Positions 1,464 to 14,122 of a stretch of DNA of 64,000 bases are shown here, piece after piece; the stretch's first letter is position 1; every line of letters begins with the position of its first letter. Origin of the DNA: Microbulbifer pacificus (GTDB taxonomy: Bacteria; Pseudomonadota; Gammaproteobacteria; Pseudomonadales; Cellvibrionaceae); the NCBI RefSeq assembly GCF_033723955.1, contig NZ_CP137555.1:676001-740000 (forward strand), written 5' to 3'. A program made the position numbers and the translations under genes. The notes beneath the pieces are model-generated. The model saw nothing but the letters and a program-made list of their open reading frames with translations, was not told the DNA's origin and made no database searches.

Positions 1464-1627
1464 TTCCCCTGCCTATGCACCTTCTGCCCTAATATCCCGC
1501 CAAGAACGCAACAAGGCCAGGCACTCAACGCAACCCGAACCCAATGACCAGCACAATACTCCTTACCCATCAGTGAACGTGTCTGAGTGTGCTGAGTGGC
1601 GACACGAAGAAATTAGGCTGCGCGCAA

Positions 1628-2002
1628 TTATGGCCTGCTCTGCCGCGGCGGCACTGCATACGCGACACCCCGACACTCCATGTATTCATGGCACATGTCA
1701 TAGGCAGTTTTACCACACGCCTCAAGTACTACGCCGTTACCACCCAAGCTATGGGTTCTAACCTTTAGATCGCTTACCAAGGCCGCTTTACTTGGCTTTG
1801 GCTGATCTAAACGCTCCTGGCAGTAAGAAGCCTCAACAAATCCCAGAGAAGTCGCGTCGTACTTTGAGATCTCTGCCAGCGAATACTCTTCAACGATTAC
1901 CGTTTTTACTTTATTTGTTGCGTACGGTCCCAGATTTGTATTAAAGGTCATACCATTGCATGCGGATATCAGGACAGCAAAAATTATTACAAATATCTTC
2001 AT
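1628..2002 (-). CDS. RcsF-like outer-membrane lipoprotein (integron cassette 22, distal end)
   Basis: Small lipoprotein of 124 residues. The N-terminus is a lipoprotein signal with lipobox I-S-A-C, lipidated Cys15. Downstream are four cysteines at 61, 96, 104 and 110, within YCQ, LEAC, MC and ECRGVAY. E. coli RcsF, the surface-stress sensor of the Rcs phosphorelay, has its four disulfide cysteines at 74, 109, 118 and 124. The spacing here is 35-8-6 against 35-9-6. The start at 2002 has GGAG eight bases upstream; an ATG 15 bases earlier is part of the cassette boundary. Similarity to RcsF is from memory of that family; a role in a stress relay is inference. It is the last cassette, and I see no intact attC downstream of it. 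Confidence 0.65.
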   Translation of the reverse strand: MKIFVIIFAVLISACNGMTFNTNLGPYATNKVKTVIVEEYSLAEISKYDATSLGFVEASYCQERLDQPKPSKAALVSDLKVRTHSLGGNGVVLEACGKTAYDMCHEYMECRGVAYAVPPRQSRP

Positions 2003-2015
2003 TGTTGTTTCCTCC

Positions 2016-2129
2016 ATTACGCCGCCCCCAAGGACGCCTTACTTTATACCCCTTTTGCGCGAAAATTGAAGCGCAGCAACTGCGCAAAAGGCGCATAACG
2101 TAAGACGTTGACTGAAGCACCATGTTAAC
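2016..2129 (-). repeat. attC site of cassette 21 (degenerate R')
   Basis: Outer ends ATTACG (left) and GTTAAC (right), with an inner near-palindrome built from ttttgcgcgaaaa and ctgcgcaaaag. The crossover box reads CGTAAT on the minus strand instead of CGTTAN, so the site is probably weak or inactive. Confidence 0.65.
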
Positions 2130-2541
2130 CGCTGATGCTCCTATCGCGATCCAGCACCCAACAACGCTCGTTATTTTGAAAACCTAAATGTTCATAGTAA
2201 GAATTTGCTGCGGGAGCCGCGATCAAGATTAGTTTACATTTTGGACCAAGCTGCTCTTGCGTAAGGACTTGTAAATTTCGCCCTACTCCCATTCCTTGAT
2301 AGCGTTTATCTACCGCCAAATCAGAAAGATAACATGCATAATGAAAATCTGTGACGCTCCGCGCAATACCCACAAGGCGATCTCCATCCCAGGCACTTAC
2401 CGTGAGATTGCTATTTTTTAGCATACCTTGAAGACACTCTCTGTCCTCTACCGGCCTACGCTCGGCTAAAGTTGAGCTTTCCAGCAAGTTCAGGAACTGC
2501 TCGACTGATACTTCTTTATCAATTCTATATTCGATGTTCAT
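2125..2541 (-). CDS. GNAT-family N-acetyltransferase (integron cassette 21)
   Basis: 138-residue single-domain GNAT protein that would transfer an acetyl group from acetyl-CoA to an amine. Motif A, the pyrophosphate-binding loop, is visible as YQGMGVGRNL at residues 81-90, preceded by the strand YLSDLAVDKR. The C-terminal segment SYYEHLGF is the usual motif B. The substrate cannot be read from sequence; in integrons this fold includes both resistance enzymes and proteins of unknown target. Its stop codon TAA overlaps the attC right end, and its ATG begins 14 bases inside the cassette, the normal compact cassette layout. Confidence 0.8.
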   Translation of the reverse strand: MNIEYRIDKEVSVEQFLNLLESSTLAERRPVEDRECLQGMLKNSNLTVSAWDGDRLVGIARSVTDFHYACYLSDLAVDKRYQGMGVGRNLQVLTQEQLGPKCKLILIAAPAANSYYEHLGFQNNERCWVLDRDRSISG

Positions 2542-2554
2542 CGTTACCAGAGCC

Positions 2555-2695
2555 GTTAACGTCCACAGCGGGATGGCTTATCTTACGTGCTTTTTGCGCG
2601 AAAATGGGACCGAAGCGAGCACGCGACATGCACACAAGTTAGGTTGCCCCACGGAAGGCCGCAAGCCTGGAACAAATTACCCGACCTTGCTATGC
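2555..2695 (-). repeat. attC site of cassette 20 (long type, one degenerate box)
   Basis: A 141-bp site of the long class, with R' GTTAACG at the left, the tttttgcgcgaaaatggga core, a side stem near ccacggaaggccgcaagcc, and GCTATGC at the right where GTTATGC is expected. Confidence 0.75.
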
Positions 2696-2715
2696 ATTGC
2701 CCGGAGATACACGTT

Positions 2716-2937
2716 CTATTGCCCAGGAAGGTCATTGCACAACTTACATGCGACCCGCCTTTTGTAGTTACGCACACGTACAATCAAGAAGATGCATGAG
2801 CTGATCAAGGCCCAAAATACACCGAACTTTAACGCGTAAACTAGATCCCTTCCTTTTAGATACTGTACACCGGAAAATAGTGCGAAAAGCGCCAGCACCA
2901 TCACGACAGTTTGAAAACTCCATTTTCTAATTGGCAT
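2716..2937 (-). CDS. Small two-helix membrane protein (integron cassette 20)
   Basis: 73-residue protein that I do not recognise. Two hydrophobic stretches, about residues 8-25 and 33-53, are joined by a short charged loop (YLKGRD), and the C-terminus is basic (RVRNYKRR). By the positive-inside tendency both ends would face the cytoplasm. It fills its cassette, reading with the array on the minus strand. Confidence 0.6.
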   Translation of the reverse strand: MPIRKWSFQTVVMVLALFALFSGVQYLKGRDLVYALKFGVFWALISSCIFLIVRVRNYKRRVACKLCNDLPGQ

Positions 2938-2966
2938 ATCGAAATTCCACTAGTGTTGATTACGAT

Positions 2967-3025
2967 GCTTAACGCGCCCCACGGAGGCCCAACGGGTCGG
3001 AGTATACTGCCTGTGATTGTTAGGC
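2967..3025 (-). repeat. attC site of cassette 19's upstream neighbour, short form (cassette 19)
   Basis: A 59-bp site from GCTTAAC at the left to GTTAGGC at the right. It keeps the right-hand CCTGTGATTGTTAGGC arm and the small ggcccaacgggtc stem. It lacks the left L-box (CACAGCAGG) and the long central hairpin of the other sites. Confidence 0.75.
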
Positions 3026-3469
3026 ATACTTACCCTCTACGAAGCATGTTACCAACAGTGTACTACCGATAAAAAGTATATTTATTGCTGCACGGACAAT
3101 CCACGGATATGAGCGATAAGAAATAGCAAAATACTTTGATAGAACAACTGCAACACCCATAAGGGAAAACCATGGTGTAAAAAATATAATTACTTTCCAT
3201 TTAACGAGAGAAACCGCTAAATCATGGAGCGCGCCACTAACAAGAAAGGTAAAAACGACCGCCAGCCAACTCGGCATAAATAAACCGAGCGGCTTCATGA
3301 TGTTGCGCGACAAATAGTAGCCCCATATTGGGTTCCAATAATGCCAAAAGACCGGGAATGAACCGGCACCCAAAGAGCGAGATAGCATATTTCTCATGGA
3401 ATGGTTTGCGCCCAGCGAAACACCGTTTCGCCTCCTAACGTACTGCGATAATGAAACTGTATTTTGCAT
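3020..3469 (-). CDS. Membrane protein resembling part of an MBOAT-type acyltransferase (integron cassette 19)
   Basis: 149-residue polytopic protein. The segment at residues 41-60 contains W-x-x-W-N-P and GYYL, and is followed by a hydrophobic helix with SGALHDL (His82). This resembles the MBOAT region around the conserved histidine that precedes or follows the acyl-acceptor site. Full MBOAT proteins have 350-500 residues, so this would be a mini or partial version. Further helices lie around 92-112 and 122-142. The assignment rests on motif memory only; an unrelated small membrane protein is possible. The stop codon overlaps the attC right end. Confidence 0.45.
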   Translation of the reverse strand: MQNTVSLSQYVRRRNGVSLGANHSMRNMLSRSLGAGSFPVFWHYWNPIWGYYLSRNIMKPLGLFMPSWLAVVFTFLVSGALHDLAVSLVKWKVIIFFTPWFSLMGVAVVLSKYFAISYRSYPWIVRAAINILFIGSTLLVTCFVEGKYA

Positions 3470-3482
3470 GATATTTCCGGAT

Positions 3483-3568
3483 GCCTAACGCTCGGTTTAG
3501 GGGCAGCTGGAGCGTAGTGTAAGCCGTTCCAGCCGCGTATTCCGCGGCGATTACAGCCGCTTTTTATG
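3483..3568 (-). repeat. attC site of cassette 18 (medium type)
   Basis: An 86-bp site beginning GCCTAACGCTCGGTTTAGGGG with inner stem agccgcg/cgcggc. The right end reads TTTATGT where GTTATGT is expected. It shares most of its sequence with the attC at 7906-7992. Confidence 0.75.
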
Positions 3569-3577
3569 TGAGCGAGG

Positions 3578-4024
3578 TCATCGCTTTAAATCGTGTGGAT
3601 CAAACCCAGTACCAAGCCGCTCACATAGCAGCCTAACCTTTGATTCATCCGCGAAACCTGCACGGTAGCATCTTAAAATAAATGCATACGCAGTATCACT
3701 TAGCTCTTTATGCATTTTTTTCAAATCAGAGCTAGGAACTCTTACCGGCGGGATTGGCACGCCATCTGAAAACTCACACCTTCCCATACAGATCGGGCAG
3801 TACTCATGAACTACCGTTCCATGTTCTCTTACCCAGGTTTTTTGAGCATCTCGCATACTCTCAAAACGATGGTGATATTCATTAAGAGCCGATAGTGCCG
3901 ATTCGATTTCACCTAGCCAGAACTCCAAATTGGCAAATTGTCCCGAAAGGTGGTGAACATATGACGTAGTAAAGCGCCTTATTTGCTCATTTATCAGCCC
4001 CGCTTTTTGAAGCGTATAAACCAT
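3578..4024 (-). CDS. Hypothetical protein with a CxxC-x3-C cluster (integron cassette 18)
   Basis: 148-residue soluble protein that I do not recognise. The N-terminal half is largely helical and hydrophilic. The centre has EYCPICMGRCEF with cysteines at 76, 79 and 83, preceded by two histidines, which may bind zinc. No partner domain is visible. It reads with the array. An ATG directly starts the track at 4024, and no better internal start is evident. Confidence 0.6.
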   Translation of the reverse strand: MVYTLQKAGLINEQIRRFTTSYVHHLSGQFANLEFWLGEIESALSALNEYHHRFESMRDAQKTWVREHGTVVHEYCPICMGRCEFSDGVPIPPVRVPSSDLKKMHKELSDTAYAFILRCYRAGFADESKVRLLCERLGTGFDPHDLKR

Positions 4025-4067
4025 AGTTCAACCCTCCAGCTTAAGCCTCCTGGCTCACAGGTAGCCC

Positions 4068-4139
4068 ACATAACGCTCGTAGCACGAGCAAATTTGTAGC
4101 GCAGCGGAAACTTTGTCGACGTGCTTACGTTTGTTATAT
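4068..4139 (-). repeat. attC site of cassette 17 (72 bp)
   Basis: Ends ACATAACG and GTTATAT. The inner arms tagcacgagcaaa and tttgtcgacgtgctta form a simple imperfect hairpin without the long conserved core. This is a different attC family from its neighbours. Confidence 0.75.
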
Positions 4140-4508
4140 TGCCGACGTATCAGGTTCACTCTGAACCCACCAAGACACGTCCATTCCTCTAAACCCTTCC
4201 GGAAAACCACATTGGTCATGGCTATTGATGTAAGGAAAACATTCTAGGGTAATTTCAGAATCTAAAAAAATTAACAAATACCCAGTTTCCAAACTCCCCG
4301 CAGATGCGCAAACCCAGGGAGTATCAATAATTGCATGTTCCTTCGGGAAAATCTCATCCGCAACAGTTAGATAATAGCCCCATCCAGTATATTCATACTG
4401 AGCATAATCTAGACATTGAGAAAGCTTCGCCCTTTGTTCACCAGACAGGTGAGCTTGAGCTAAAAATCGAATGATTTGCTGTTCGAAACTCTTGAGCTTA
4501 ACTTTCAT
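4134..4508 (-). CDS. Hypothetical protein (integron cassette 17)
   Basis: 124-residue soluble protein starting MKVKLKSFEQQ. An in-frame ATG 27 bases upstream lies inside the neighbouring attC, so the internal start at 4508 is preferred. It is rich in aromatic residues (YEYTGWGYYL, WWVQSEP) and has no motif I can name. The stop codon lies in the attC right end. Function unknown. Confidence 0.6.
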   Translation of the reverse strand: MKVKLKSFEQQIIRFLAQAHLSGEQRAKLSQCLDYAQYEYTGWGYYLTVADEIFPKEHAIIDTPWVCASAGSLETGYLLIFLDSEITLECFPYINSHDQCGFPEGFRGMDVSWWVQSEPDTSAI

Positions 4509-4510
4509 GC

Positions 4511-4655
4511 AATATAACGCCCACAGCAAGGGCAACTTACCTTATTCATGTTTTGAGCAAAAATGGGAGCGAAGCGACCGCACAAAACGTGCATAAGGTA
4601 AGCCGTCCCGCAGAGGCTCAAAGGGCCGGAGCTTCACTGCCTGTGATTGTTAAGC
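4511..4655 (-). repeat. attC site of cassette 16 (long type)
   Basis: A 145-bp site from ATATAACG to GTTAAGC. It has the CCCACAGCA L-box, the long cttaccttattcatgtttt stem and its partner, the second stem near gaggctcaaagggccgg, and the CTGCCTGTGATTGTTAAGC arm. Confidence 0.85.
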
Positions 4656-5024
4656 ACTTGGCACTGGGCATGAAGGTTCTTTACCTTCCAGCGGTGACAA
4701 AAACTTAGCCAATTCCCCTGAGCATATTAAGTAGAAATTTGGATCAGAGTCAGCATCTTTCGCTTGCACCGCTGAATGAATGACTTTGCCATTAGAATAC
4801 AGAGTTGACTCAAGATTCTTAGAATTCTTGGGATTTACTATAACGGAGAGACGAAGCTCGTCCGTGAGCACAAGTTCTTGGGAGACATAAGAGTCTATAT
4901 CTATCAGAAACTCTTGGATTGAATTCTGATCAATTACAACTTTTAGCTTAAACGGTGCTCTCTCGTTTGCTGATGCTAAACCAGAAAGGAGCATGAAAAG
5001 TAACGATGCAGCTATGGTTTTCAT
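4650..5024 (-). CDS. Secreted or periplasmic hypothetical protein (integron cassette 16)
   Basis: 124 residues with a clear Sec signal peptide (MKTIAASLLFMLLSGLASA, cleavage expected after ASA at about residue 19). The mature part is beta-rich, carries two cysteines (LICSG and PSCPV) that could pair, and has no recognisable domain. It reads with the array, its stop lying in the attC. Likely periplasmic; function unknown. Confidence 0.65.
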   Translation of the reverse strand: MKTIAASLLFMLLSGLASANERAPFKLKVVIDQNSIQEFLIDIDSYVSQELVLTDELRLSVIVNPKNSKNLESTLYSNGKVIHSAVQAKDADSDPNFYLICSGELAKFLSPLEGKEPSCPVPSA

Positions 5025-5051
5025 TTTCTATTCCCTGATTGTGATTTCTGT

Positions 5052-5144
5052 GCTTAACGCCTTGCACACGGGCCGACTGAAGCGCAGCGTAAGGAGGTCC
5101 GGGCCGCCGCGCAGTGGCGGCTGAAGTGCTGCAAATTGTTATGC
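5052..5144 (-). repeat. attC site of cassette 15 (93 bp)
   Basis: Ends GCTTAACG and GTTATGC, with inner stem gggccgccgcgcagtggcgg. It is a medium-length site, unlike the long class in its core. Confidence 0.75.
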
Positions 5145-5157
5145 ATTTTACCTAAAT

Positions 5158-5556
5158 TCATTTTAGCCGGATTAGCTCTTTGGCATTTATCTCTCTATAT
5201 TCACCATAGACGTCACAATTAATAGTTTTCGAAGATTTTAATTCACACATAATTGTCACTTCACCTTGGTCTCTACCATTATCGCAAAATCCGCCAGTGC
5301 CACTTAAAAGAATAATCTCTTCACTTTTGTATTCTATATATGCCGGCTGGTAACACCGAGTAGGGTCCGACTCGATCGCTTTATTTGAATAATAAGTAGA
5401 AAGTGAACCTACTTTATGATTTACGCAAAGCGTAACTATATTTTCATATTCTCCAATTTCTGCTGTCCAACACCCCACAGCGTACTTATCTTCACCAGAA
5501 TGGGCCAACAACGGAATTAACAGACATACGACAAATACGGAGAATCTATATTTCAT
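5158..5556 (-). CDS. Cysteine-rich secreted hypothetical protein (integron cassette 15)
   Basis: 132 residues with a signal peptide (hydrophobic core VFVVCLLIPLLAHS, cleavage near residue 20). The mature part has cysteines in GCW, TLCV, RCYQ, GFCD, IMCEL and INCDV, six in all, an even number consistent with three disulfides in an oxidising compartment. No known domain is recognised. It follows its neighbour in the array orientation. Periplasmic or secreted location is inference from the signal peptide. Confidence 0.65.
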   Translation of the reverse strand: MKYRFSVFVVCLLIPLLAHSGEDKYAVGCWTAEIGEYENIVTLCVNHKVGSLSTYYSNKAIESDPTRCYQPAYIEYKSEEIILLSGTGGFCDNGRDQGEVTIMCELKSSKTINCDVYGEYREINAKELIRLK

Positions 5557-5574
5557 ACTGGTATCCTATGACAT

Positions 5575-5655
5575 GCATAACGTTCGCCGCACAGGCGAGC
5601 AACTTGTTGCGAGTCCAGCGCACGTAGTGCGCGATTGTGCCGGTGCTTGTTAGGC
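5575..5655 (-). repeat. attC site of cassette 14 (81 bp)
   Basis: Ends GCATAACG and GTTAGGC. The inner palindrome cgcacgtagtgcgcg is distinct from the common long class. Confidence 0.75.
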
Positions 5656-5659: not shown

Positions 5660-6313
5660 TTACCCCCAAAATTTCCACCATGGCCTTGGGGTAACTTCTT
5701 CTACGTCGACAATATTGATACTTTTACAAACCTGATTCATTTTAGAGCGGACTTTACTTAAAGGATGCTCTGGGAATTGGCTATCATATTCCTCAGAGTC
5801 TGCATTATTCCTCAGGCTTGGCCCTTTATATTCAGGAAAATAAGGATCGCATGCCCAACCAGATGGAATTCCATCGTCATTGAGAACATCATCTCCACTT
5901 TCAGATAAATATTTATCAAAAACTATGGCATCCCTAAGGCCAGTCATTCCATCTTCTCTGGAGTAAAGCGACAATACAAATGATCGATCCATAAGCGGCA
6001 TTGAAAGTGATGCAATATATTGCGCTGATTCACCAGAAGCGACTATTTTCCCAATCGCTCTCGCGGATGGGTAACCAGAAATAATGACTGAATCACATTC
6101 GACCACGCCCACACCCTGCGCGGCCAGATTAGCTCTAAAATACTCTCTCATAGCATTTTCATCAGAGAGCAAGTCGCTTAGTTCTTTATCTGGGCCAATA
6201 CATTGCAGTCGCATGAGAACGCCATTTCCATCGTGCCAATTCTTTACATTTTCTCCTGAACTCTTTTCGTCAAAGATCCACTCCTTATCAGAAAATTTGA
6301 AATATTTTGGCAT
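5660..6313 (-). CDS. Hypothetical protein (integron cassette 14)
   Basis: 217-residue soluble protein, the largest cassette product. The start at 6313 (MPKYFKFSDKEW) is chosen because AAGGAG lies nine bases upstream; an ATG nine bases earlier would sit directly on that ribosome site. No domain is recognised. The C-terminus ends TPRPWWKFWG, a short aromatic tail seen in many unrelated proteins. Function unknown. Confidence 0.65.
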   Translation of the reverse strand: MPKYFKFSDKEWIFDEKSSGENVKNWHDGNGVLMRLQCIGPDKELSDLLSDENAMREYFRANLAAQGVGVVECDSVIISGYPSARAIGKIVASGESAQYIASLSMPLMDRSFVLSLYSREDGMTGLRDAIVFDKYLSESGDDVLNDDGIPSGWACDPYFPEYKGPSLRNNADSEEYDSQFPEHPLSKVRSKMNQVCKSINIVDVEEVTPRPWWKFWG

Positions 6314-6332
6314 TTTTACCATCTCCTTGGCT

Positions 6333-6476
6333 GCCTAACGCCGCCGACAGGGGCAGCTTACCTTGTGCGCGTTTTGCGCGAAAATGGGAGCGCAGCGACC
6401 CGCGCAAAATGTGCACAAAGTAAGCTGTCCCGCGGAGGGCCCCAGGCCCGGAGCAAATTGCCCGGCCTTGTTATGC
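6333..6476 (-). repeat. attC site of cassette 13 (long type)
   Basis: A 144-bp site from GCCTAACG to GTTATGC. It carries the full long stem (cagcttaccttgtgcgcg with its partner cacaaagtaagctg) and the second stem gagggccccaggccc. Confidence 0.85.
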
Positions 6477-6527: not shown

Positions 6528-6809
6528 TTAGCCCTGCTCAAAAATTTGGTAATGACGCTCTACATTTTTTGTGACTTTACCCCAGTGCGAACTTTTGACT
6601 CGCTGCTGATGGTAAGCAAATGCTTCTTTGTTAGAAAATTCTTCGTATACGTTGAATCGACAAATATTATTTTTGTCTTGACTAACGTTGAATTTCTCGC
6701 AGCCAAATTCTTCTCTAGTGAGCTGAATATGACTAATCAATTCCTTTTTGACGATCTCAAGATCTGACTCAGGAACGACGATATACCCTTCCAATATTAC
6801 CTTGTTCAA
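6528..6809 (-). CDS. Antibiotic-biosynthesis-monooxygenase-like (ABM/YgiN) protein (integron cassette 13)
   Basis: 93-residue dimeric alpha-beta barrel type protein. The pattern LEGYIVVPESDLE..., a central CRFNVYEEFSNKEAFAYH segment and the SSHWGKVTKNVE tail match small ABM-domain proteins, which act on quinones, haem or polyketides. No ATG is available inside the cassette. A TTG at 6807-6809 with AAGGA seven bases upstream is the best start; longer readings run into the attC. The substrate is unknown. Confidence 0.7.
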   Translation of the reverse strand: MNKVILEGYIVVPESDLEIVKKELISHIQLTREEFGCEKFNVSQDKNNICRFNVYEEFSNKEAFAYHQQRVKSSHWGKVTKNVERHYQIFEQG

Positions 6810-6827
6810 TATTCGATCCTTGATGAC

Positions 6828-6946
6828 GCATAACGCCGCGCTCAGGGGCCGCTTGCTTTGGGCGCATTTTGCGCAAAAATGGGAGTGGAGCGACCTGCGC
6901 AAAAGGTGCATAAAGTAAGCCGTCGCTTTGCAGCGCCTTGTTAGGC
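6828..6946 (-). repeat. attC site of cassette 12 (119 bp)
   Basis: Ends GCATAACG and GTTAGGC. It has the long stem cttgctttgggcgcattttgcgc, but the second GGCCC-type stem is replaced by gctttgcagcgcc. Confidence 0.8.
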
Positions 6947-7329
6947 TGCTGGCTGTACCAAATTTATAAGATTGCCACAGCTATCTTCGAAAAGAACATT
7001 TGTAATAGGACCCATGTTCTTTGGTTCGCCGCGAAATTGCACCCCGAGCGCCTTAAGTCGAGTGTACTCAGCGGAAATGTCACTTGAGATAAACGCGGTA
7101 GCCGGAATTCCGGCTTCAAAAAGCGCCTTCTGATATGTAATCGCCGGTGGAAATGCAGCCGGTTCAAGAACAAGCTCAACTCCGGCAGCGCTTCCGGCGA
7201 AATTACCGTAAGCCAACGAAATTCACCAATCGGAATGTCATTCTTTACTTCAAAACCGAGCACTTTCGTATAGAAATTCAAAGCCCGATTTTGATCTTCT
7301 ACTGTAATGCTTGCCAACGTAATTTGCAT
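6941..7329 (-). pseudogene. Glyoxalase/VOC-family protein with a frameshift (integron cassette 12)
   Basis: The first part (from 7329) reads MQITLASITVEDQ...ALNFYTKVLGFEV...GEFRWLTVISPE, a standard vicinal-oxygen-chelate N-terminus. From about 7180-7198 the family sequence continues in a different frame as AGVELVLEPAAFPPA...TAFISSDI...NVLFEDSCGNLINLVQ to the stop at 6941. The two frames together make one complete VOC domain of about 128 residues; neither alone does. Either the gene carries a one-base indel in gcgcttccggcg, or the assembly has an error there. If intact, it would be a small metal-dependent VOC enzyme or binding protein. Confidence 0.75.
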
Positions 7330-7353
7330 AAATATACCTGGATCAATTTTTAA

Positions 7354-7413
7354 GCCTAACGCCGTCCCGCGGAGGCCCGAAGGGCCGTAGCAAACTGCCT
7401 GCGATTGTTAGAG
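7354..7413 (-). repeat. attC site of cassette 11, short form (60 bp)
   Basis: Ends GCCTAACG and GTTAGAG. It retains the GGCCCGAAGGGCC stem and the CTGCCTGCGATTGTTAG arm. The left L-box and the long hairpin are absent, as in the site at 2967-3025. Confidence 0.8.
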
Positions 7414-7998: not shown

Positions 7999-8406
7999 CT
8001 AACCACGCAACGCCTCTTCGTATTGCACCCTATCAAAAACAAACTCTTCGGGTATTTGTTGCCACTGCAATTCACGATCAACATCTAGTCCGTTTTCATA
8101 GCGCCAGTCAGACCAGCAATAGCAATCACCTTGCTTAGAAACACGGACAGTGATAGCACCACAATTGATATCTCGACAGAGCTCACATGCTAGAACTGCA
8201 TTCCGCCCGGATTCGAGCTCCGGCAGAGACCTACATAGGAATCTACTGACACACTCATTGTGATCCAGACCTCCAAACACAGATAACTGTGTGGGGTGGA
8301 GGCCTTTCCTACTCACAAAATATTTATTTAATGCTTGGCCATCTATGTAGATGTCCAAGTACTTTTCTCCATTATAGGTAGAGGGCACTAATTCGATCTT
8401 ATTCAT
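7999..8406 (-). CDS. Conserved hypothetical protein ending in an FVFDRxQYEEAL motif (integron cassette 10)
   Basis: 135-residue soluble protein starting MNKIELVPSTYNG at 8406; a longer reading begins inside the neighbouring attC and is rejected. The centre has a cluster of cysteines (LACELCRDINCG and DCYCW), followed by a Trp-rich stretch and the C-terminal EFVFDRVQYEEALRG. I recall this layout from a family of small uncharacterised bacterial proteins, sometimes labelled oxidoreductase without evidence. Function unknown; the cysteines may bind a metal. Confidence 0.6.
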   Translation of the reverse strand: MNKIELVPSTYNGEKYLDIYIDGQALNKYFVSRKGLHPTQLSVFGGLDHNECVSRFLCRSLPELESGRNAVLACELCRDINCGAITVRVSKQGDCYCWSDWRYENGLDVDRELQWQQIPEEFVFDRVQYEEALRG

Positions 8407-8421
8407 ATACCGGCTATCCGT

Positions 8422-8565
8422 GCCTAACGCCCGCAACAGGGGCGAGCAATGCTATGCACATTTTGTGCGAATATGGGAGCGCAGCGACCCGCACAAAATG
8501 TGCATAGCGTTGGGCGTCCCGCGGAGGCCCAAAGGGCCGTAGCAAACTGCTTGCGTTTGTTAAGC
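8422..8565 (-). repeat. attC site of cassette 9 (long type)
   Basis: A 144-bp site from GCCTAACG to GTTAAGC. The core gagcaatgctatgcacat and its partner are almost identical to the attC at 11259-11402. The side stem is ggcccaaagggcc. Confidence 0.85.
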
Positions 8566-9144
8566 ATTTGACGCTGAAACTGGGTGCTGGGGAGCTGGAA
8601 TCCCAAGCTTTGTGAAAAAGAACGTCACTGTTAAGGCCCGTATGCCTCTCGCCGCAATTTCCAACATTGCATAATCATCCGTGGTATTTTCTCTGCCCAG
8701 AGTTGGATGAGCTATCTCTTTATGCCCTATGTGAATAATTCTTGCTAGTGACATCTCCGCCTCTTCTTTCGGACCAGGGTAAAGACTGTATACATCTTCA
8801 ATACTAACCTTGGATAGTTTTCCACTGGTGCCTTCGAAGTCCTCTATGAAGAGGTCATCATCATATCTTCTTCCATTTCTTTCACTCAATTTGTATGGGT
8901 TTCCTTTTTCTACCTTTAAACCCAAAAATTCGAGCAAAGCTCTTGCATTAATAATTCCAGCTTCGACAGCACCATTCGCTATGAATGAAGTATTTCCTCG
9001 CACCTTGAGCTTGCCTTCGACGAAAAGCTCAAAGGGTTTGCTGCCCTCTTCAAAGATAAGAGTGTCTAGCACGAAATGCATGATATCTACCATGCCTAAC
9101 CGGTGAGGAATGATTGAACTTATATACTCTTCTTTAGTTCTCAT
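8560..9144 (-). CDS. Hypothetical protein (integron cassette 9)
   Basis: 194-residue soluble protein starting MRTKEEYISSIIPHRLGM. No domain is recognised. There is a conserved-looking middle with KLSERNGRRYDDDLFIEDFEG, a helical segment containing IIHIGHKEIAHPTLGREN (three His in a helix-like spacing) and a hydrophobic C-terminal region ALTVTFFFTKLG. It reads with the array and its stop lies in the attC. Function unknown. Confidence 0.65.
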   Translation of the reverse strand: MRTKEEYISSIIPHRLGMVDIMHFVLDTLIFEEGSKPFELFVEGKLKVRGNTSFIANGAVEAGIINARALLEFLGLKVEKGNPYKLSERNGRRYDDDLFIEDFEGTSGKLSKVSIEDVYSLYPGPKEEAEMSLARIIHIGHKEIAHPTLGRENTTDDYAMLEIAARGIRALTVTFFFTKLGIPAPQHPVSASNA

Positions 9145-9147
9145 TTT

Positions 9148-9236
9148 GCTTAACGTTCTAATAACCGGCAGCCGAAGCGTAGCGTAGGCTGTCCGGCGCG
9201 CGCCTTTCGCGCGCGAAGTTCATTAGCTTGTTATAC
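9148..9236 (-). repeat. attC site of cassette 8 (89 bp)
   Basis: Ends GCTTAACG and GTTATAC. Strong inner palindrome cggcgcgcgcctttcgcgcgcg; not of the long class. Confidence 0.8.
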
Positions 9237-9464
9237 GTATTGCTGCCCATAAATCACCAAGGCAGCAGAAACAATGACGGAGGCGAAGATCGAGAAGTTT
9301 AGCCTCTTTAACCATACCTCATTCTCTCTATTCTTAAAGCGAACAAATGCTCCGATAAGCGAAAGAGCCAAGAGAAGGATCATGACTGGCATAAAGTCAG
9401 TTAAAACTGCCCAAGCCGTCATTGCGATGATGCCCAGCGGAGCCAGGAAAGCAAAATCCTTCAA
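9231..9464 (-). CDS. Small membrane protein, probable TTG start (integron cassette 8)
   Basis: 77 residues with three hydrophobic stretches (about 4-20, 24-42 and 55-72) separated by charged loops (RFKNRENEVWLKR). No ATG is in frame within the cassette. TTG at 9462-9464 has GGAG six bases upstream and is preferred; a GTG start at 9497 would lie inside the attC. Not recognised; inner-membrane location is inferred from hydrophobicity. Confidence 0.55.
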   Translation of the reverse strand: MKDFAFLAPLGIIAMTAWAVLTDFMPVMILLLALSLIGAFVRFKNRENEVWLKRLNFSIFASVIVSAALVIYGQQYV

Positions 9465-9484
9465 TTCATTCTCCGATCTAATAC

Positions 9485-9629
9485 GTATAACGCCCACGGC
9501 AGGGGCGGCTTACCTTATGCGCAATTTACGCGAAAATGGGAGCGAAGCGACCCGCGTAAAACGTGCATAAGGTAAGCCGTCCCGCGGAGGCCCGAAGGGC
9601 CGGAGCATCACTGCCCGTGATTGTTATGT
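9485..9629 (-). repeat. attC site of cassette 7 (long type)
   Basis: A 145-bp site from GTATAACG to GTTATGT, with the long stem ggcttaccttatgcg / gcataaggtaagcc and the side stem GGCCCGAAGGGCC. Confidence 0.85.
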
Positions 9630-9857
9630 GGAATCTGGCACATGGCCTAACCAACGCGCTATAAGTACCAGCAACAGAGAAAGTACCCACGCTGGCCAGG
9701 CCCCTTCTACCGTACGGAACAATGCGACAACACCTTGAGAATCAACCATATCTGGGCCGAGACCATCTCTCAAGACGTAGCTAATTGCGCCCCCTAGCAC
9801 GAAGATCAAAATTGACAGGAAGTACGCGACTCTTCTTCCGATTAACTTCGCTTTCAT
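9624..9857 (-). CDS. Small two-helix membrane protein (integron cassette 7)
   Basis: 77 residues starting MKAKLIGRRV. Two transmembrane segments are seen, about residues 10-29 and 53-70, linked by a polar loop of roughly 23 residues. The basic N-terminus suggests that end is cytoplasmic. No family is recognised. Confidence 0.6.
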   Translation of the reverse strand: MKAKLIGRRVAYFLSILIFVLGGAISYVLRDGLGPDMVDSQGVVALFRTVEGAWPAWVLSLLLVLIARWLGHVPDST

Positions 9858-9891
9858 TTTCTATATATTTCTAGCTGCGTTTTCGATGGAC

Positions 9892-10036
9892 ACATAACGC
9901 CCACAGCAGGGGCGACTTACCTTGTGCGCGTTTTGCGCGAAAATGGGAGCCAAGCGACCTGCGCAAAATGTGCACAAGGTAAGGCGTCCCGCGGAGGCCC
10001 GAAGGGCCGGAGCTTCACTGCCTGTGATTGTTATGT
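9892..10036 (-). repeat. attC site of cassette 6 (long type)
   Basis: A 145-bp site from ACATAACG to GTTATGT. Complete long stem, side stem GGCCCGAAGGGCC and both L/R arms are present; a good reference copy for this array. Confidence 0.9.
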
Positions 10037-10297
10037 GTTGCTTGCGACAAAGCTCGATAAATATTCTCTTGCATCCTCAAAAGTTGGCAGAATTGCCTTC
10101 TCATTTTCCGGGCACCAAACTGGAAGGCGCCACTGATGATCTCGTTGCTTTCTAAATGAATAAGGTAGATAGCAACCATCAGCTCTTTGATAAATTATTT
10201 CTAGGCGATCCAGCTTCTTGCTATAGCTTTCATGCACCACTCTAGATGAATCATCTTCTTCAATGTTAAGCCAAATTGCTTCGTACTTTTCTTCCAT
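10031..10297 (-). CDS. Hypothetical protein (integron cassette 6)
   Basis: 88-residue soluble acidic protein (MEEKYEAIWLNIEED...). It looks like a small alpha/beta protein with aromatic strands (LEIIYQRADGCYLPYS) and a C-terminal helix. No motif is recognised and no signal peptide is seen. The stop overlaps the attC right end. Confidence 0.6.
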   Translation of the reverse strand: MEEKYEAIWLNIEEDDSSRVVHESYSKKLDRLEIIYQRADGCYLPYSFRKQRDHQWRLPVWCPENEKAILPTFEDAREYLSSFVASNT

Positions 10298-10307
10298 GAC
10301 TACTTAC

Positions 10308-10452
10308 ACATAACGCTGCCAGCAGGGGCAGCTTACCTTGTGCGCGTTTTGCGCGAAACTGGGAGCGCAGCGACCCGCGAAAAACGTGCACAAGGTAAAC
10401 TGTCCCGCGGAGGGCCGAAGGCCCGGAGCATTACTGCCTGGCCTTGTTATAG
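10308..10452 (-). repeat. attC site of cassette 5 (long type)
   Basis: A 145-bp site from ACATAACG to GTTATAG, with long stem gcagcttaccttgtgcg and side stem gagggccgaaggccc. Confidence 0.85.
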
Positions 10453-10475: not shown

Positions 10476-10673
10476 TTATGCATAACCATATATGCCGGGA
10501 TCACTGAATATTGCAGCTACCGTATTCTGCGCCTGCTCTATTGAAAGCTCAGCACGTAGTAAAATAGCAACTGCCTCCCTCTCGTCCCGCGCCAATATCG
10601 CAGCATCGAATTGCTTGATGAGCCCGACATTAAAAAGGCGCTCGTTTATCGTCATTCCAGCGAGTTCGCTCAT
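10476..10673 (-). CDS. Small conserved hypothetical protein (integron cassette 5)
   Basis: 65 residues. The pattern INERLFNVGLIKQFDAA...RDEREAVAILLRAELSIEQAQ...DPGIYGY is one I recall from short uncharacterised proteins in many bacteria, often near toxin-like or phage genes. It appears all-helical. No catalytic residues are evident. Function unknown; an anti-toxin or immunity role is only a guess. Confidence 0.6.
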   Translation of the reverse strand: MSELAGMTINERLFNVGLIKQFDAAILARDEREAVAILLRAELSIEQAQNTVAAIFSDPGIYGYA

Positions 10674-10688
10674 AGTCAGATGGACGCC

Positions 10689-10805
10689 CTATAACGCCGC
10701 GCTCAGGGGCGGCTTACTTTGTGTATTTTATGTGCAACAATGGAGCGAAGCGACGGCGCATAAAGTGCACAAAGTAAGCCGTCCCGTTGCAGCGCATTGT
10801 TATGC
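10689..10805 (-). repeat. attC site of cassette 4 (117 bp)
   Basis: Ends CTATAACG and GTTATGC. It has the long stem ggcttactttgtgtatttt with partner, and the short side stem is reduced to gttgcagcgc, as in the attC at 6828-6946. Confidence 0.8.
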
Positions 10806-10807: not shown

Positions 10808-11248
10808 TTACTCTGAGCGCCATAGGACCTCTGTTAAAACTGGAAACTCACCGTAACTCAGCACAATTTCTTTTTCCAAACTGTCATTTAACCCGCTAAA
10901 TCCAAGGTAAACATAGTGATCGAAGCAACCCTGCACCATAATGTTGCCCTGCTTAGGTCTTACCTTTACCACCTTTAAATCATTGAATTCATCAGGCAGC
11001 TCATTATTTTGTAGCCTGGAGTATCCACCGAACGGCGTATCTTCACTCAGAGAGTAGTCATGCATTTGAAGGTAGAGCAACTCCAAACGCTCTTCAGATA
11101 GTGAGCGCGCATATCTAACAGCCTCAGAGTCTTCATCACAAGAAGGACGGTCCCAGCCAAAAATAAACCCGCCCAAAATGAAAAAGAACAGGCAAATACC
11201 AAGAAATGCCGATGTTAAGATTCCTATAAGTTTGAGAGTAAACTTCAT
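10808..11248 (-). CDS. Membrane-anchored hypothetical protein (integron cassette 4)
   Basis: 146 residues. A single hydrophobic helix at about 7-31 (LIGILTSAFLGICLFFFILGGF) is followed by a hydrophilic domain of about 115 residues with many charged residues, which would face the periplasm if the helix is an uncleaved signal anchor. No domain is recognised. Confidence 0.6.
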   Translation of the reverse strand: MKFTLKLIGILTSAFLGICLFFFILGGFIFGWDRPSCDEDSEAVRYARSLSEERLELLYLQMHDYSLSEDTPFGGYSRLQNNELPDEFNDLKVVKVRPKQGNIMVQGCFDHYVYLGFSGLNDSLEKEIVLSYGEFPVLTEVLWRSE

Positions 11249-11258
11249 CAGTCTCTAC

Positions 11259-11402
11259 GCATAACGCCCGCAGCAGGGGCGACCAATGCTATGCACATTT
11301 TGTGCGAATATGGGAGCGCAGCGACCCGCACAAAATGTGCATAGCGTTGGGCGTCCCGCGGAGGCCCGAAGGGCCGGAGCATCCTGCCTGCGATTGTTAT
11401 AT
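11259..11402 (-). repeat. attC site of cassette 3 (long type)
   Basis: A 144-bp site from GCATAACG to GTTATAT. Its core is almost identical to the attC at 8422-8565 (ccaatgctatgcacatttt), with side stem GGCCCGAAGGGCC. Confidence 0.85.
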
Positions 11403-11813
11403 GTGATACCACCATTTTTCACTAATTTTTCCGTGATATTCCTTACCGCTCCGCACCAATACTCTCACAAAACAGGCTGGATTTGACGTGTTTCCAAACT
11501 GCAACTCCAACCCTCCAATGTCTATGCCTGAGCTGCTACCAGACTTGATACTGGTGTCTTTCATGTCCATGGAATACAAATGGTTTCTCATATGGTCAAG
11601 GAAATCGATTCTTCCTACGATCTGTTCTCTAAAGGAATTATTTTTGAGTATCACCATCAATGGTGATCTTCTATGCGAACAGTATTTGCCTTGATAGTTT
11701 TTATAGGCTTTTACAACCAAAAAACCACATATGAGTCTCTTCCATGCGACATATTGGGTTATCACGACAACGATGACCAGAAGGGTCCAAATAATTAGCT
11801 CGTCAGTTTTCAT
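11397..11813 (-). CDS. Membrane-anchored hypothetical protein (integron cassette 3)
   Basis: 138 residues. One N-terminal transmembrane segment (about 6-28, IIWTLLVIVVVITQYVAW) is followed by a basic soluble domain with GIDIGGLELQFGN and RVLVRSGKEYHG. Not recognised. The stop codon lies in the attC right end. Confidence 0.6.
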   Translation of the reverse strand: MKTDELIIWTLLVIVVVITQYVAWKRLICGFLVVKAYKNYQGKYCSHRRSPLMVILKNNSFREQIVGRIDFLDHMRNHLYSMDMKDTSIKSGSSSGIDIGGLELQFGNTSNPACFVRVLVRSGKEYHGKISEKWWYHI

Positions 11814-11817
11814 TTAC

Positions 11818-11962
11818 ATATAACGCCGCCAGCAGGGGCAGCTTACCTTGTGCACGTTTTGCGCGAAAATAGGAGCGTAGCGACCCGCGCAAAACGTGCA
11901 CAAGGTAAGCTGTCCCGCGGAGGGCCGAAGGCCCGGAGCTTTACTGCCTGGCATTGTTATGT
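11818..11962 (-). repeat. attC site of cassette 2 (long type)
   Basis: A 145-bp site from ATATAACG to GTTATGT, with long stem gcagcttaccttgtgcacg and side stem gagggccgaaggccc; close to the attC at 10308-10452. Confidence 0.85.
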
Positions 11963-12201
11963 TTTTTCCTATTCAGGCTAAAAATACCAATTAAAAATAA
12001 CCCGAACACACTTATTTGGCTTAATTTCCTATCTAAAACCCCTACCAAATAGCTGACATCACCTGAGCTAGCCCCCTTAACCTTAAGTATTTCATCGAGT
12101 AGTTCTCGCATTGTTTGTACATGAAGGAAAAGAGTCGAAAAAAGCAGTAATAGCAATATTTCCGGAAGATATCTTAATGTGAAATTCTTAATAATTAGCA
12201 A
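11941..12201 (-). CDS. Small membrane protein (integron cassette 2)
   Basis: 86 residues with hydrophobic segments at about 11-28 (LPEILLLLLFSTLFLHV) and 63-76 (ISVFGLFLIGIFSL), separated by a polar linker. The frame runs through the R'' box of the attC before its stop, so the last residues (HNNARQ) are encoded by the recombination site. Not recognised. Confidence 0.55.
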   Translation of the reverse strand: MLIIKNFTLRYLPEILLLLLFSTLFLHVQTMRELLDEILKVKGASSGDVSYLVGVLDRKLSQISVFGLFLIGIFSLNRKKHNNARQ

Positions 12202-12219
12202 AGTGAGATTCTCAGTAAA

Positions 12220-12312
12220 ACATAACGCCCACAGCAGGGGCGGCCGACGCGTAGCGTAGGCCGTCCCGCAGAGGCCCGAAGGGCCGGCGCAAACTGCCTG
12301 TGATTGTTATGA
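12220..12312 (-). repeat. attC site of cassette 1 (93 bp)
   Basis: Ends ACATAACG and GTTATGA. It keeps both L-boxes and the GGCCCGAAGGGCC side stem; the long hairpin is shortened to ggccgacgcgtagcgtaggcc. Confidence 0.85.
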
Positions 12313-12750
12313 GCAGGAGCGCTCATAGGTAAAAACGTAGCCATCATATAGCTCGAATATTTTATTAGAGTTCACTATTTCAATATAAGTGTATGGATCT
12401 TCCTCATCTTTATTTTCATAAACCTCAATTTTCTTAACAAGCTTACGATCCGGGTATACACCATAAAATACCGAATCTTTCTGCCTGATATTTCCCTCTT
12501 CGTGGTCGGCGAAATTTTCTACAGTTAATTTATAGATAGGATTGTAAATCACGCTCGAGAGGGAGCTAAATTCATTTTTTGAAATTAAAACTTTGGTCCC
12601 AAGCCAATTTTTAGCCTCTTCCTCAGGGATTATTGAGCCACGAAAGGTGTCCATTTTCACTACGCACCATTCCCCAAAGAAGTCTTTAAATGGTTCTTCT
12701 GCAGAAATATTGAAGGAAACCAACATAAATATGAGTGGTAATAGTCTCAT
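12307..12750 (-). CDS. Secreted or periplasmic hypothetical protein (integron cassette 1, attI-proximal)
   Basis: 147 residues with a signal peptide (MRLLPLIFMLVSFNISA, cleavage near 17). The mature domain starts EEPFKDFFGEWCVVKMD and ends YVFTYERSCS, so the two cysteines near its ends could form a disulfide. Not recognised. As the first cassette it is the one most strongly served by the cassette promoter. Confidence 0.65.
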   Translation of the reverse strand: MRLLPLIFMLVSFNISAEEPFKDFFGEWCVVKMDTFRGSIIPEEEAKNWLGTKVLISKNEFSSLSSVIYNPIYKLTVENFADHEEGNIRQKDSVFYGVYPDRKLVKKIEVYENKDEEDPYTYIEIVNSNKIFELYDGYVFTYERSCS

Positions 12751-12830
12751 TTTTTATCGCTCATAACAGTTTATTCAAGGGCCATTGGCCTTATATCTCT
12801 TTCGCAACTATTTCTTGTCGCCAACTTAAC
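12751..12830 (-). other. Probable attI recombination site
   Basis: On the minus strand ACTGTTATGA (12761-12770) provides the GTTAT crossover core just before the first cassette. It is not flanked by an attC-like palindrome on the integrase side, as expected for attI. The exact right limit cannot be set from sequence alone. Confidence 0.65.
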
Positions 12831-13021
12831 CCTGGAAACTGATTTCTCTTTAAAATCAATGGGTTATTAATTTCAAGCCCAGTACTTTTCCAAATTAGAA
12901 CGAATCATCGTTCTCCAATGAGTTTATCCAATGGCTTTTGAGCATATTTGAATGTCCTTAAAAGTCAACGACTTACACGCTCTCTTCCAGAAATAGTGGA
13001 CTGTTCAATATATTTCGGTGA
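12831..13021. other. Leader region between attI and intI
   Basis: An AT-rich stretch with no credible gene on either strand. It should hold the cassette promoter and integrase-binding sites. Confidence 0.5.
12941..12968 (-). promoter_or_regulatory. Candidate cassette promoter (Pc)
   Basis: On the minus strand TTGACT (12963-12968) and TATGCT (12941-12946) are separated by 16 bases, reading toward the first cassette, with a leader of about 170 bases. It is the best sigma-70 pair I find in this region; not proven. Confidence 0.45.
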
Positions 13022-13046
13022 TTGACGGAATCCTATACTGCGACCA

Positions 13047-13062
13047 CTGTATATAAAAACAG
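13047..13062 (+). promoter_or_regulatory. LexA-type SOS box upstream of intI
   Basis: CTGTATATAAAAACAG matches the LexA consensus CTGT-N8-ACAG exactly. It lies 17 bases before the ATG and overlaps a plausible -10 (TATATA). A TTGACG element is at 13022-13027, with a long spacer. SOS control of integrase genes is established for other integrons. Confidence 0.8.
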
Positions 13063-13078
13063 TAGACGAGAGGCCGTC

Positions 13079-14122
13079 ATGGATGACATTCGCCATGCAA
13101 TACCCAGCTCTTCCGAACGCTTTATGCCGTTGCTTAGACGGCATATGCGGGAATCTGGACTTGCATATCGCTCAGAGCAGACTTACACGCACTGGATCAA
13201 ACGGTTCATTCATTACCACAAGCTTCGTCATCCAAGGGATATGGGGGTTGTGGAGGTGGAAGAGTTTTTGACCTATCTGTCCGTTGACAAGTTTTGTGCA
13301 ATTAACACTCAGAAAATTGTATTAAATGCTCTCGTATATCTTTACAAGCGCTATCTGGAATTAAGCCTTGAGGGGCTTAACTTTAAACCGGCGCGACAAT
13401 ATCGGCGTCTACCCGTGGTATACAGCCAATCTGAAATCCAGGCGATTCTTGTGCACTTGAACGGAACACACCGTCTTTTAGTGGAACTTATGTATGGTGC
13501 CGGGCTTCGCAGTGCCGAGTTACTTTCCCTTCGAATCAAGGATATAGACTTCGGCAGCAATAATATTGTGGTGAGAAGTGGCAAGGGAAATAAGGATCGC
13601 ACTACGATTCTTCCTCAGGCTCTCATTCCTGCATTGAGGCGGCAGATTGAGAAAGTGAGGATACTTCACGCGGAAGACGTTGCTGCCGGCTTTGGGGAGG
13701 TATATCTGCCTGACGCGCTGGAGCGGAAATATCCAAGAGCCGCTAGCGAAATTGCCTGGCAGTTCCTGTTCCCCTCCTCCAGAGTCGGGCCCTGCCCGCG
13801 GACAGGAGTTATTAGGCGCCACCATCTGCATCCGTCCGCGCTGGCTAAGCATATCCGCCATGCAGTCAAATCCGCGGGCGTACACAAGCCTGCTCGCGCG
13901 CACGCGTTTCGGCACAGTTTTGCAACGCACCTGCTGGAATCCGGTTACGACTTGAGGACTATCCAAGAGTTACTTGGCCACTCGGATATTTCTACTACCG
14001 AGATTTATACCCATGTGGTTAATCGAGGTGGGAAAGGAGTTCTTAGTCCAATGGATCGCCTGCCGACACCATTGGATTCAGGAGTTTCGGAACACTGCCC
14101 TGAATATCGCTTAGCCGGCTAA
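13079..14122 (+). CDS. intI: Integron integrase (tyrosine recombinase)
   Basis: 347-residue recombinase that joins cassettes at attI and attC. Catalytic residues are visible: Arg144 (GAGLRSAE), Lys169 region (SGKGNKDR), His275/Arg278 (HAFRH), His301 (LLGHSD) and nucleophile Tyr310 (IYTHV). The integron-specific insertion between the conserved boxes runs from about 196 to 232 (LHAEDVAAGFGEVYLP...KYPRA...WQFLFP) and separates IntI from phage or XerC/D recombinases. The start at 13079 has GAGAGG five bases upstream; a TTG reading from 13022 would cross the promoter and the LexA site. It is divergent from the cassettes, the classic layout, and appears intact. Confidence 0.95.
   Translation: MDDIRHAIPSSSERFMPLLRRHMRESGLAYRSEQTYTHWIKRFIHYHKLRHPRDMGVVEVEEFLTYLSVDKFCAINTQKIVLNALVYLYKRYLELSLEGLNFKPARQYRRLPVVYSQSEIQAILVHLNGTHRLLVELMYGAGLRSAELLSLRIKDIDFGSNNIVVRSGKGNKDRTTILPQALIPALRRQIEKVRILHAEDVAAGFGEVYLPDALERKYPRAASEIAWQFLFPSSRVGPCPRTGVIRRHHLHPSALAKHIRHAVKSAGVHKPARAHAFRHSFATHLLESGYDLRTIQELLGHSDISTTEIYTHVVNRGGKGVLSPMDRLPTPLDSGVSEHCPEYRLAG

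Follow-up and report, generated by a model that had tools for sequence, protein, structure and literature searches.

A chromosomal integron of Microbulbifer pacificus and its apparent sharing of a cassette pool with a second integron

The window analysed here, a stretch of 64,000 nucleotides (64 kb) from the Microbulbifer pacificus chromosome, almost certainly holds a sedentary chromosomal integron, set between groESL and tRNA-Arg-dusC and accompanied elsewhere in the chromosome by a second integron with which it appears to have a common cassette pool. The integron of the window is otherwise ordinary; the shared pool is the part that deserves follow-up, and Microbulbifer, as a genus outside Vibrio with complete genomes and paired arrays, would allow cassette traffic to be measured.

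Integrase, attachment sites and cassettes

The integrase gene intI (13079..14122, plus strand) encodes 347 aa from an ATG; its open reading frame opens at 13022, and the TTG start placed there by the earlier note is corrected to the ATG at 13079 as the likely start. Its best match among solved structures is the Vibrio cholerae integron integrase 2a3v (291.6 bits, E 9.9e-86), the next-ranked chain being XerC-like at 109.3 bits, and the insert of integron-type tyrosine recombinases is present in alignment to 2a3v, with the motif LPDALERKYPRA. The pattern for this motif, as written here, was present in 35 of 53 integrases and in none of six other sequences, and missed the second integrase of the genome. 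Grouping of intI with phage or XerC/D recombinases had been set beforehand as a test of the integron claim, and these scores place the enzyme elsewhere. Together with the attC covariation and the attI described below, they refute the idea that the locus is a phage or XerCD-type recombinase island, or a run of chance repeats, to which we give practically no credence.

The presence of intI with a LexA box, as previously described, is borne out: the box, CTGT-N8-ACAG, lies in the intI promoter at 13047..13062, as in SOS-regulated integrases, and was found in 13 of the 14 related platforms compared. The proposed attI-like crossover also held. As in a complete integron, attI adjoins intI, and comparison of the 14 related platforms, all alike up to AACTG|TTA and diverging beyond, locates it to a single base (12767|12766; crossover G|TT at 12765..12767, minus strand). 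A weak candidate cassette promoter lies at 12941..12968 (minus strand), one being found against 0.9 expected by chance. From what is known of the family, the SOS response would lift LexA from the intI promoter and IntI would be made; the enzyme would bind the folded bottom strand of attC and double-stranded attI, excise cassettes and insert them at attI, and the first cassettes would be transcribed from attI towards tRNA-Arg.

The array contains 21 attC sites, all on the plus strand: attC 1 (12219..12312), 2 (11817..11962), 3 (11258..11402), 4 (10688..10805), 5 (10307..10452), 6 (9891..10036), 7 (9484..9629), 8 (9147..9236), 9 (8421..8565), 10 (7905..7992), 11 (7353..7413), 12 (6827..6946), 13 (6332..6476), 14 (5574..5655), 15 (5051..5144), 16 (4511..4655), 17 (4067..4139), 18 (3482..3569), 19 (2966..3025), 20 (2553..2707) and 21 (2013..2130). 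Outer boxes are degenerate in attC 18, 20 and 21 (R'' in the first two), and the short attC 11 and 19 are without the inner palindrome. A covariance model (R2), built from 14 of the sites with a structure from the DNA fold of one of them, replaced a first model (R1) whose automatic consensus had yielded only three pairs. R2 finds all 21 sites in the window (E 4e-38 to 0.006, the last for attC 19), including, as independent recoveries, the seven kept out of model building (attC 4, 11, 12, 14, 19, 20 and 21). Twenty of the matches span the whole model, attC 11 being reported as 7301-7413, and attC 21 was recovered only via its inner palindrome (2034-2109). The remaining 11 of the 32 matches read these palindromic sites a second time, on the minus strand, and nothing else is listed in the 64 kb at E up to 10; when the 4.19-Mb genome was searched, 20 of the 21 were found at E ≤ 1, attC 14 being absent.

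Tested on a structure derived from one of the tested sequences, the attC sites showed pairing in 92.3% of cells, compared with 79.8% in shuffles and 34.5-38.5% in slid controls; 20 of 46 pairs were changed on both sides, and the covariation score was equalled in none of 500 shuffles. The array thus has the conserved fold of a complete integron, the 21 attC-like sites noted earlier are borne out by model and independent recovery alike, and the test set beforehand, failure of an attC covariance model at the listed spacing, ended with the sites found there.

All 22 of the cassette genes previously reported are present, every one on the minus strand. They had rightly been called AT-rich, since their coding sequence has 42.7% G+C against 59.4% in window positions 14201-62900. 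Only four products exceed the Pfam cut-off: cassette 11 (7423..7887, 154 aa, Excalibur domain), cassette 12 (6941..7329, VOC), cassette 13 (6528..6911, ABM domain) and cassette 21 (2125..2541, 138 aa, GNAT). Below the cut-off are an MBOAT-like match in cassette 19 (3020..3469, 149 aa, with an 80% relative over 101 aa in L035) and an RcsF-like match in the lipoprotein-like cassette 22 (1628..2017, 129 aa), beyond which there is no attC, so that the original estimate of about five known families was fair. The VOC-family gene of cassette 12 is split across two frames (6964-7329 and 6941-7216), a correction to the earlier description. In cassette 13 the listed ORF opens inside attC 12; the true start is probably later, and matches to the attC-encoded residues were dropped from the cassette comparison.

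For the other 18 of the 22 products Pfam gave nothing above the cut-off. Cassettes 1 (12307..12750, 147 aa, secreted-looking), 3 (11397..11813, 138 aa), 4 (10808..11248, 146 aa, with a 43% relative in L038), 5 (10476..10673, 65 aa), 6 (10031..10297, 88 aa), 10 (7999..8436, up to 145 aa) and 17 (4134..4535, up to 133 aa) gave no family, and cassettes 2 (11941..12201, 86 aa, membrane-like), 7 (9624..9857, 77 aa), 8 (9231..9497, up to 88 aa, with an 88.5% relative in L063) and 14 (5660..6322, 220 aa) none over the cut-off. Cassettes 15 (5158..5556, 132 aa) and 16 (4650..5024, 124 aa, with a 72% relative in the groESL array of G032) are secreted-looking and cassette 20 (2716..2937, 73 aa) membrane-like; cassettes 9 (8560..9144, 194 aa) and 18 (3578..4024, 148 aa) are orphans, with matches in their own genome only among the 144 family genomes searched. 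Single-sequence structure prediction gave no usable model for cassettes 9 and 14 (mean pLDDT 32.3 and 32.4); by eye, the cassette 9 product has an R-x5-H motif that may be HEPN-like. Plasmid searches with cassettes 9, 14, 15 and 17 returned a single weak match, to cassette 14. PADLOC, which covers known anti-phage families only, matched none of 23 ORFs at E ≤ 0.1, and on such families the array does not qualify as an anti-phage biobank. PHROGs gave one solid match, to the unnamed family phrog_5854 (2.3e-11), not tied to a particular cassette.

Chromosomal address and orientation to replication

All parts of the integron lie between tRNA-Arg and groESL, where the earlier note had put them. The proximal flank is groEL (14184..15815, minus strand); the distal flank is tRNA-Arg(acg) (1348..1424, plus strand), followed by a dusC-like gene at 64..1101 (plus strand). 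The order groESL-intI-array-tRNA-Arg-dusC recurs in three other species (G017, G031 and G032), where the dusC-like gene stands beside the same tRNA, similarity stops near 1465 and the integrases are 71, 66 and 47% identical to IntI. With both flanks alike, the position has been kept over speciation, as in sedentary integrons, and the address is one that these species have in common while integrase and cassettes differ. Comparison at the tRNA-Arg flank gave no sign of a tRNA-attachment origin. The locus lies in one 4.19-Mb contig, has core-gene flanks and a single attC family, and so does not have the character of a mobile integron.

More widely, intI has groEL as its neighbour in 10 or more of the 16 complete genomes. 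On our tree (where outgroup placement is unreliable, branches being long) groEL stands beside 20 of 53 integrase loci, in several lineages. A dusC gene no more than 60 kb from an integrase is limited to 4 of the 16 complete genomes, that of the window included, and the distance exceeds 180 kb in the other 12; the distal flank is therefore not generally kept. Integrons might have inserted several times, independently, at a hotspot beside groEL, which would explain the differing integrases there, since the groEL label requires nine changes on the tree (eight on starred branches alone) and integrase lineages A, A' and B are all found there. We regard this as a serious but minority possibility, because the far flank is also alike in G017, G031 and G032, for which one ancestral insertion is simpler; integrase exchange within one old integron would account for the differing integrases.

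Of 31 integrase loci, 29 have their cassettes oriented with the replication fork, and two, at 4.85 Mb in G035 and 2.08 Mb in G047, run against it. The own genome has dnaA at C1:2.19 Mb and both of its arrays are fork-wise. Because a dif pattern based on that of E. coli was matched in only 5 of 16 genomes, origins were placed from dnaA and termini half-way round. Clusters of attC are fork-wise in 39 of 45 cases and against the fork in six, counted from 86 attC positions hand-picked from model searches of the own genome and 15 others (the best 150 matches of the latter, with none among them in G028, G035 or G047); the own genome has two further single sites, both weak (3401536 and 3639484), that were left out and would count as fork-wise. 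Against a null of 60% fork-wise, p is 3e-5 for the integrase loci and 9e-5 for the clusters, values that are too good because loci in sister or closely related genomes lack independence. Where no integrase lies within 40 kb, clusters are fork-wise in 21 of 27 cases (p 0.04 at a 60% null, 0.11 at 65%), so the orientation rule is not shown for them. In the window, as in sedentary integrons, attC bottom strands lie on the leading-strand template; the fork-wise orientation accords with the published rule, for which Microbulbifer supplies many further loci.

The attC family, the second integron and shared cassettes

A second integron lies in the same chromosome, with an integrase at C1:3541408 that is 43% identical to IntI and 27 attC sites of the same family as those of the window. 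The genome also has a four-site attC cluster (C1:2056854-2058808) and three single attC sites, all integrase-free; two sites of the cluster and two of the single ones are weak model matches (E 0.002 to 0.75). The second integron, the shared attC family and cassette, the recurrence of the address and the replication layout all lie beyond what the earlier note took in.

The attC family is homogeneous and taxon-specific. Among the matches listed it occurs in 24 genomes of the genus, whose best E values span 7.6e-19 to 3e-37 and reach 1.2e-26 or better in 23, against 1.7e-20 for the best of any other genus; that listing does not name the 14 genomes lacking a match. Same-family attC sites adjoin 27 of the 29 integrase loci searched, the other two being cut by a contig end.

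The cassettes all point the same way and appear to move as exact units. One of the 22, cassette 15, is present with its attC in both arrays: the stretch 5055..5582 (minus strand) is 99.1% identical over 528 bp to C1:3554926-3555453 in the second integron, with similarity bounded by GTTA at each end. From this sequence comparison, the two integrons, with quite different recombinases, appear to draw on the same cassette pool, one that would feed cassettes into both arrays. Among 12 Microbulbifer genomes with two integrons, most of whose arrays were read only in part, five have cassettes common to both arrays at 97-100%, and no shared cassette was seen in the other seven.

Two arrays that do not exchange, each capturing the same cassettes separately from the DNA of other cells, would also yield such copies. 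The seven genomes without sharing suit this account, as do cassettes at 91-97% identity between species, from which it follows that an outside pool exists; yet copies within a genome reach 100% over >370 bp (G004, G031 and G047), whereas the closest between-species match listed is 96.6% (array G047 and its own deposit YPW16 set aside). We think separate capture somewhat doubtful. Direct transfer between arrays, expected from knowledge of the family, would be indistinguishable here from two captures of one incoming cassette. Homologous recombination between alike attC repeats, in place of the integrase, seems improbable. The attC sites of both arrays do form one family, and in G031 similarity continues into the preceding attC, but in G000 and G004 it ends at the GTTA crossover and not inside the attC arms, and the G004 copy lies at attI, where it heads the array of integron B and is matched at 100% identity by two copies in integron A.

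Beyond the common pool, we consider it an evenly balanced possibility that Microbulbifer integrons form one network, in which at least three integrase lineages (43-63% mutually identical) accept the genus-wide attC family, pass cassettes between arrays in the cell and take each other's place at fixed addresses, groESL for example. If so, the inherited stable part would be the attC family rather than the integrase, and the integrases would be its interchangeable readers. To our knowledge the origin of attC taxon-specificity is an open question, with the resident integrase the usual suspect; different integrase lineages with one attC family, in the same cell and at the same address, make it testable.

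Relation to known integrons

Saccharophagus is kin of Microbulbifer. According to the available parts of PMC2386152, S. degradans 2-40 has a low-G+C set of 40 genes, all on the same strand and separated by 140-bp repeats, in a genome with several integron/phage integrases, all of which resembles the present case; its repeats are given there as >95% conserved, whereas the attC sites of the window range from 60 to ~146 bp and covary. The V. cholerae superintegron and other sedentary integrons are alike in IntI (2a3v), LexA box, homogeneous attC and many small cassettes of no known function. Bottom strands of attC on the leading-strand template, as here, were found in 25 of 30 sedentary chromosomal integrons (PMC5371416, in part). 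The superintegron is larger, with 179 cassettes (PMC11551772, in part) against 22, and differs further in that no toxin-antitoxin family is among the Pfam matches listed for the window and that the Microbulbifer chromosome has a second integron, whose integrase belongs to another lineage.

For Shewanella, strains with more than one type of chromosomal integrase, as here, are described and stated not to have been found before (PMC9229058, in part); unlike here, one attC family and cassette-exact copies between integrons are not reported in the available parts of that source. Clusters of attC without an integrase are termed CALIN (PMC9024848, in part), and the four sites at C1:2056854-2058808 and the three single sites are of this kind, with the difference that they match the resident attC family model, some of them weakly.

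Integrase, attI and attC sites

The DNA studied here (C1:676001-740000 of a single 4,194,096-bp contig, 100% complete) carries a tyrosine recombinase gene, a 366-aa open reading frame whose product is likely 347 aa long, starting from the ATG at 13079. The closest solved structure is the Vibrio cholerae integron integrase 2a3v (E 9.9e-86, 291.6 bits), against 109.3 bits for the XerC-like 4a8e, and the stretch that distinguishes IntI from Xer aligns with 2a3v, so the gene encodes an integron integrase rather than a Xer-type recombinase. The nearest named relatives of the protein come from Microbulbifer species, and the host is taken to be a Microbulbifer. The window integrase, a member of our lineage A, groups with that of the related genome G002 (support 100/99) in a tree that combined 53 integrase rows with six other recombinases of the window's own genome. 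The outgroup was not relied upon, because all six of its rows have very long branches and one is placed among the integrases at an unresolved fork. A crude test flagged some integrase frames of relatives as interrupted (L043, L053, L055, L056, L058, L060, L065, L074 and L112); in the case of L058 and L112 this may reflect only alignment past the true stop.

The alignment of 14 lineage-A loci, chosen from those in hand, began at the start of intI and ran in the direction of the array. An exact LexA box (CTGT-N8-ACAG) is present in 13 of them, with L131 deviating; LexA control of intI is treated in PMC3108266. All 14 are identical at AACTG|TTA, beyond which no conserved column was marked, and this end of identity places the attI crossover at 12767|12766. 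Our scan gave one promoter-like pair, at 12968-12941, where 0.9 was expected, which is no better than chance.

A covariance model built from 14 well-aligned attC sites recovers all 21 sites located across 2013-12312, the number claimed in the earlier note, seven of them outside its building set. Compensatory change, with both sides altered, occurs in 20 of 46 pairs, and the covariation score is 0.297 versus 0.105 in shuffles, none of 500 shuffles scoring as high. Slid controls were 34.5 to 38.5% paired, a comparison that favours the true register, as the structure was derived from one of the aligned sequences. Sites of a long type (about 145 bp) combine a side hairpin with a long inner palindrome; those at 7353-7413 and 2966-3025 resemble this type without the inner palindrome, as if it had been lost through slippage. 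Several sites distant from attI are decayed: R'' is off consensus at 3482-3569 and 2553-2707, as are both outer boxes at 2013-2130. Between tRNA-Arg and the last cassette, 14 bases (1510-1523) match an attC outer arm in the opposite orientation (E 0.003 against 48 attC sites), perhaps a relic, perhaps chance.

The feature is thus a real chromosomal integron, as first interpreted, and belongs to a known kind; that of S. degradans is described in PMC2386152.

Cassettes of the window array

The 22 cassette genes predicted earlier are all present and all on the minus strand. Numbered from attI, four exceed the Pfam cut-off: cassettes 11 (Excalibur), 12 (6941-7329), 13 (ABM) and 21 (GNAT). Cassette 12 holds a Glyoxalase/VOC-like gene in two separate frames, each piece matching its part of the family. 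Matches below the cut-off comprise MBOAT in cassette 19, a weak RcsF match (17.7 bits against a cut-off of 29) for the lipoprotein-like product of cassette 22, the last (1628-2017), and a few weaker, chance-like ones. Fetched arrays from other species contain relatives of cassettes 4, 8, 16 and 19. For cassettes 9 and 18, a search of 143 other genomes of the family gave no relative at E 1e-5. Cassettes as phage defence are reviewed in PMC12409362; here, none of 23 open reading frames has a PADLOC match to an anti-phage family at E 0.1.

Chromosomal address and orientation

Three related genomes (G017, G032 and G031) repeat the window's layout, with groEL (95 to 98% identical) adjoining the integrase (71, 66 and 47% identical, respectively) and tRNA-Arg(acg)-dusC at the opposite end, where the distal flank is 85-87% similar to window 1165-1465. 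Between these flanks lie 60, 19 and 18 attC sites, respectively (hand count, E ≤ 0.001), the last in G031 among the matches listed falling about 39 kb before the tRNA. Several stretches of the G017 array (L142, L143) are present twice or more at 99.6-100% identity. Among 16 complete genomes, dusC lies within 60 kb of an integrase locus only in these three and the window's own; the remaining 12 have it at a distance of more than 180 kb, which counts against this address as a general rule. At least 10 of the 16 have groEL next to an integrase (G000, which is the window's own genome, and G001, G004, G006, G007, G010, G017, G031, G032 and G035). The integrases on the groEL side belong to lineage A, its branch A' (G032) or lineage B (G006, G007, G031 and the draft genome G016), and the groEL label requires nine changes on the integrase tree, eight of them forced by starred branches. 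Either repeated insertion or integrase exchange at one address would produce this diversity. For lineage C, four of six loci compared (G000, G006, G016 and G031) have one set of neighbour genes in common and the remaining two share a separate set.

With dnaA at 2.19 Mb in the window's own genome, and cassette direction taken as opposite to intI, cassettes run with the replication fork at 29 of 31 integrase loci in the 16 complete genomes, as do 39 of 45 attC clusters. Among the integrase loci, only G035 C1:4851024 and G047 C1:2076917 run against it, and attC sites of the same family adjoin both integrases. The same orientation is reported for 25 of 30 SCIs (PMC5371416), and it fits the mechanism put forward in PMC11023631; the layout in Microbulbifer is confirmation, not discovery.

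A second integron and shared cassettes

The same chromosome encodes a second integrase, of lineage C and 43% identical to that of the window, which adjoins 27 attC sites of the same family. More than one IntI is reported for 22% of genomes having any (PMC9024848), and different chromosomal integrases within single Shewanella strains are described (PMC9229058).

The second array holds a copy of one of the 22 window cassettes, cassette 15 (99.1% over 528 bp); the copy begins at CGTTATGC and stops at the GCGTTA that follows, and the neighbouring cassettes differ between the two arrays. In a comparison of 38 array stretches, made with attC masked and mostly on the fetched part only, five of the 12 genomes for which two arrays from different branches were available share cassettes between them at 97-100%. 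Their integrases are 43% (G000), 46% (G002), 51% (G004), 63% (G031) and 67% (G047) identical, both in G047 falling in the broad A group; sharing stands at four of nine once the three genomes with both integrases in that group are removed. G000 and G004 show exact ends; for G002 and G047 the fetched stretch stops short of one end, and in G031 similarity extends into the preceding attC. The first cassette of integron B in G004, at attI, matches two copies within integron A at 100% identity. Between genomes, 10 rows match at ≥90% over 150 bp, five of which (four of nine array pairs) link different lineages, every time A with B.

These sequence comparisons point to different integrases that read a single attC family and probably a common pool of cassettes, a moderate addition to an otherwise known kind of element. 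Cassette-exact sharing between different-lineage chromosomal integrons of one genome was absent from the titles and abstract openings searched, in which subscription journals were thinly covered, and this absence is no proof of novelty.

Elsewhere in the genome, a cluster of four attC sites without an integrase lies near 2.057 Mb (C1:2056467-2058808; 4467-6808 of the fetched stretch L102), and single sites occur at 232743, 3401536 and 3639484. The cluster adjoins another tRNA-Arg (ccg), much as the window array ends beside tRNA-Arg (acg). At the far end of the window, 62962-64000 holds a 5S rRNA gene together with the terminal part of a 23S rRNA gene.
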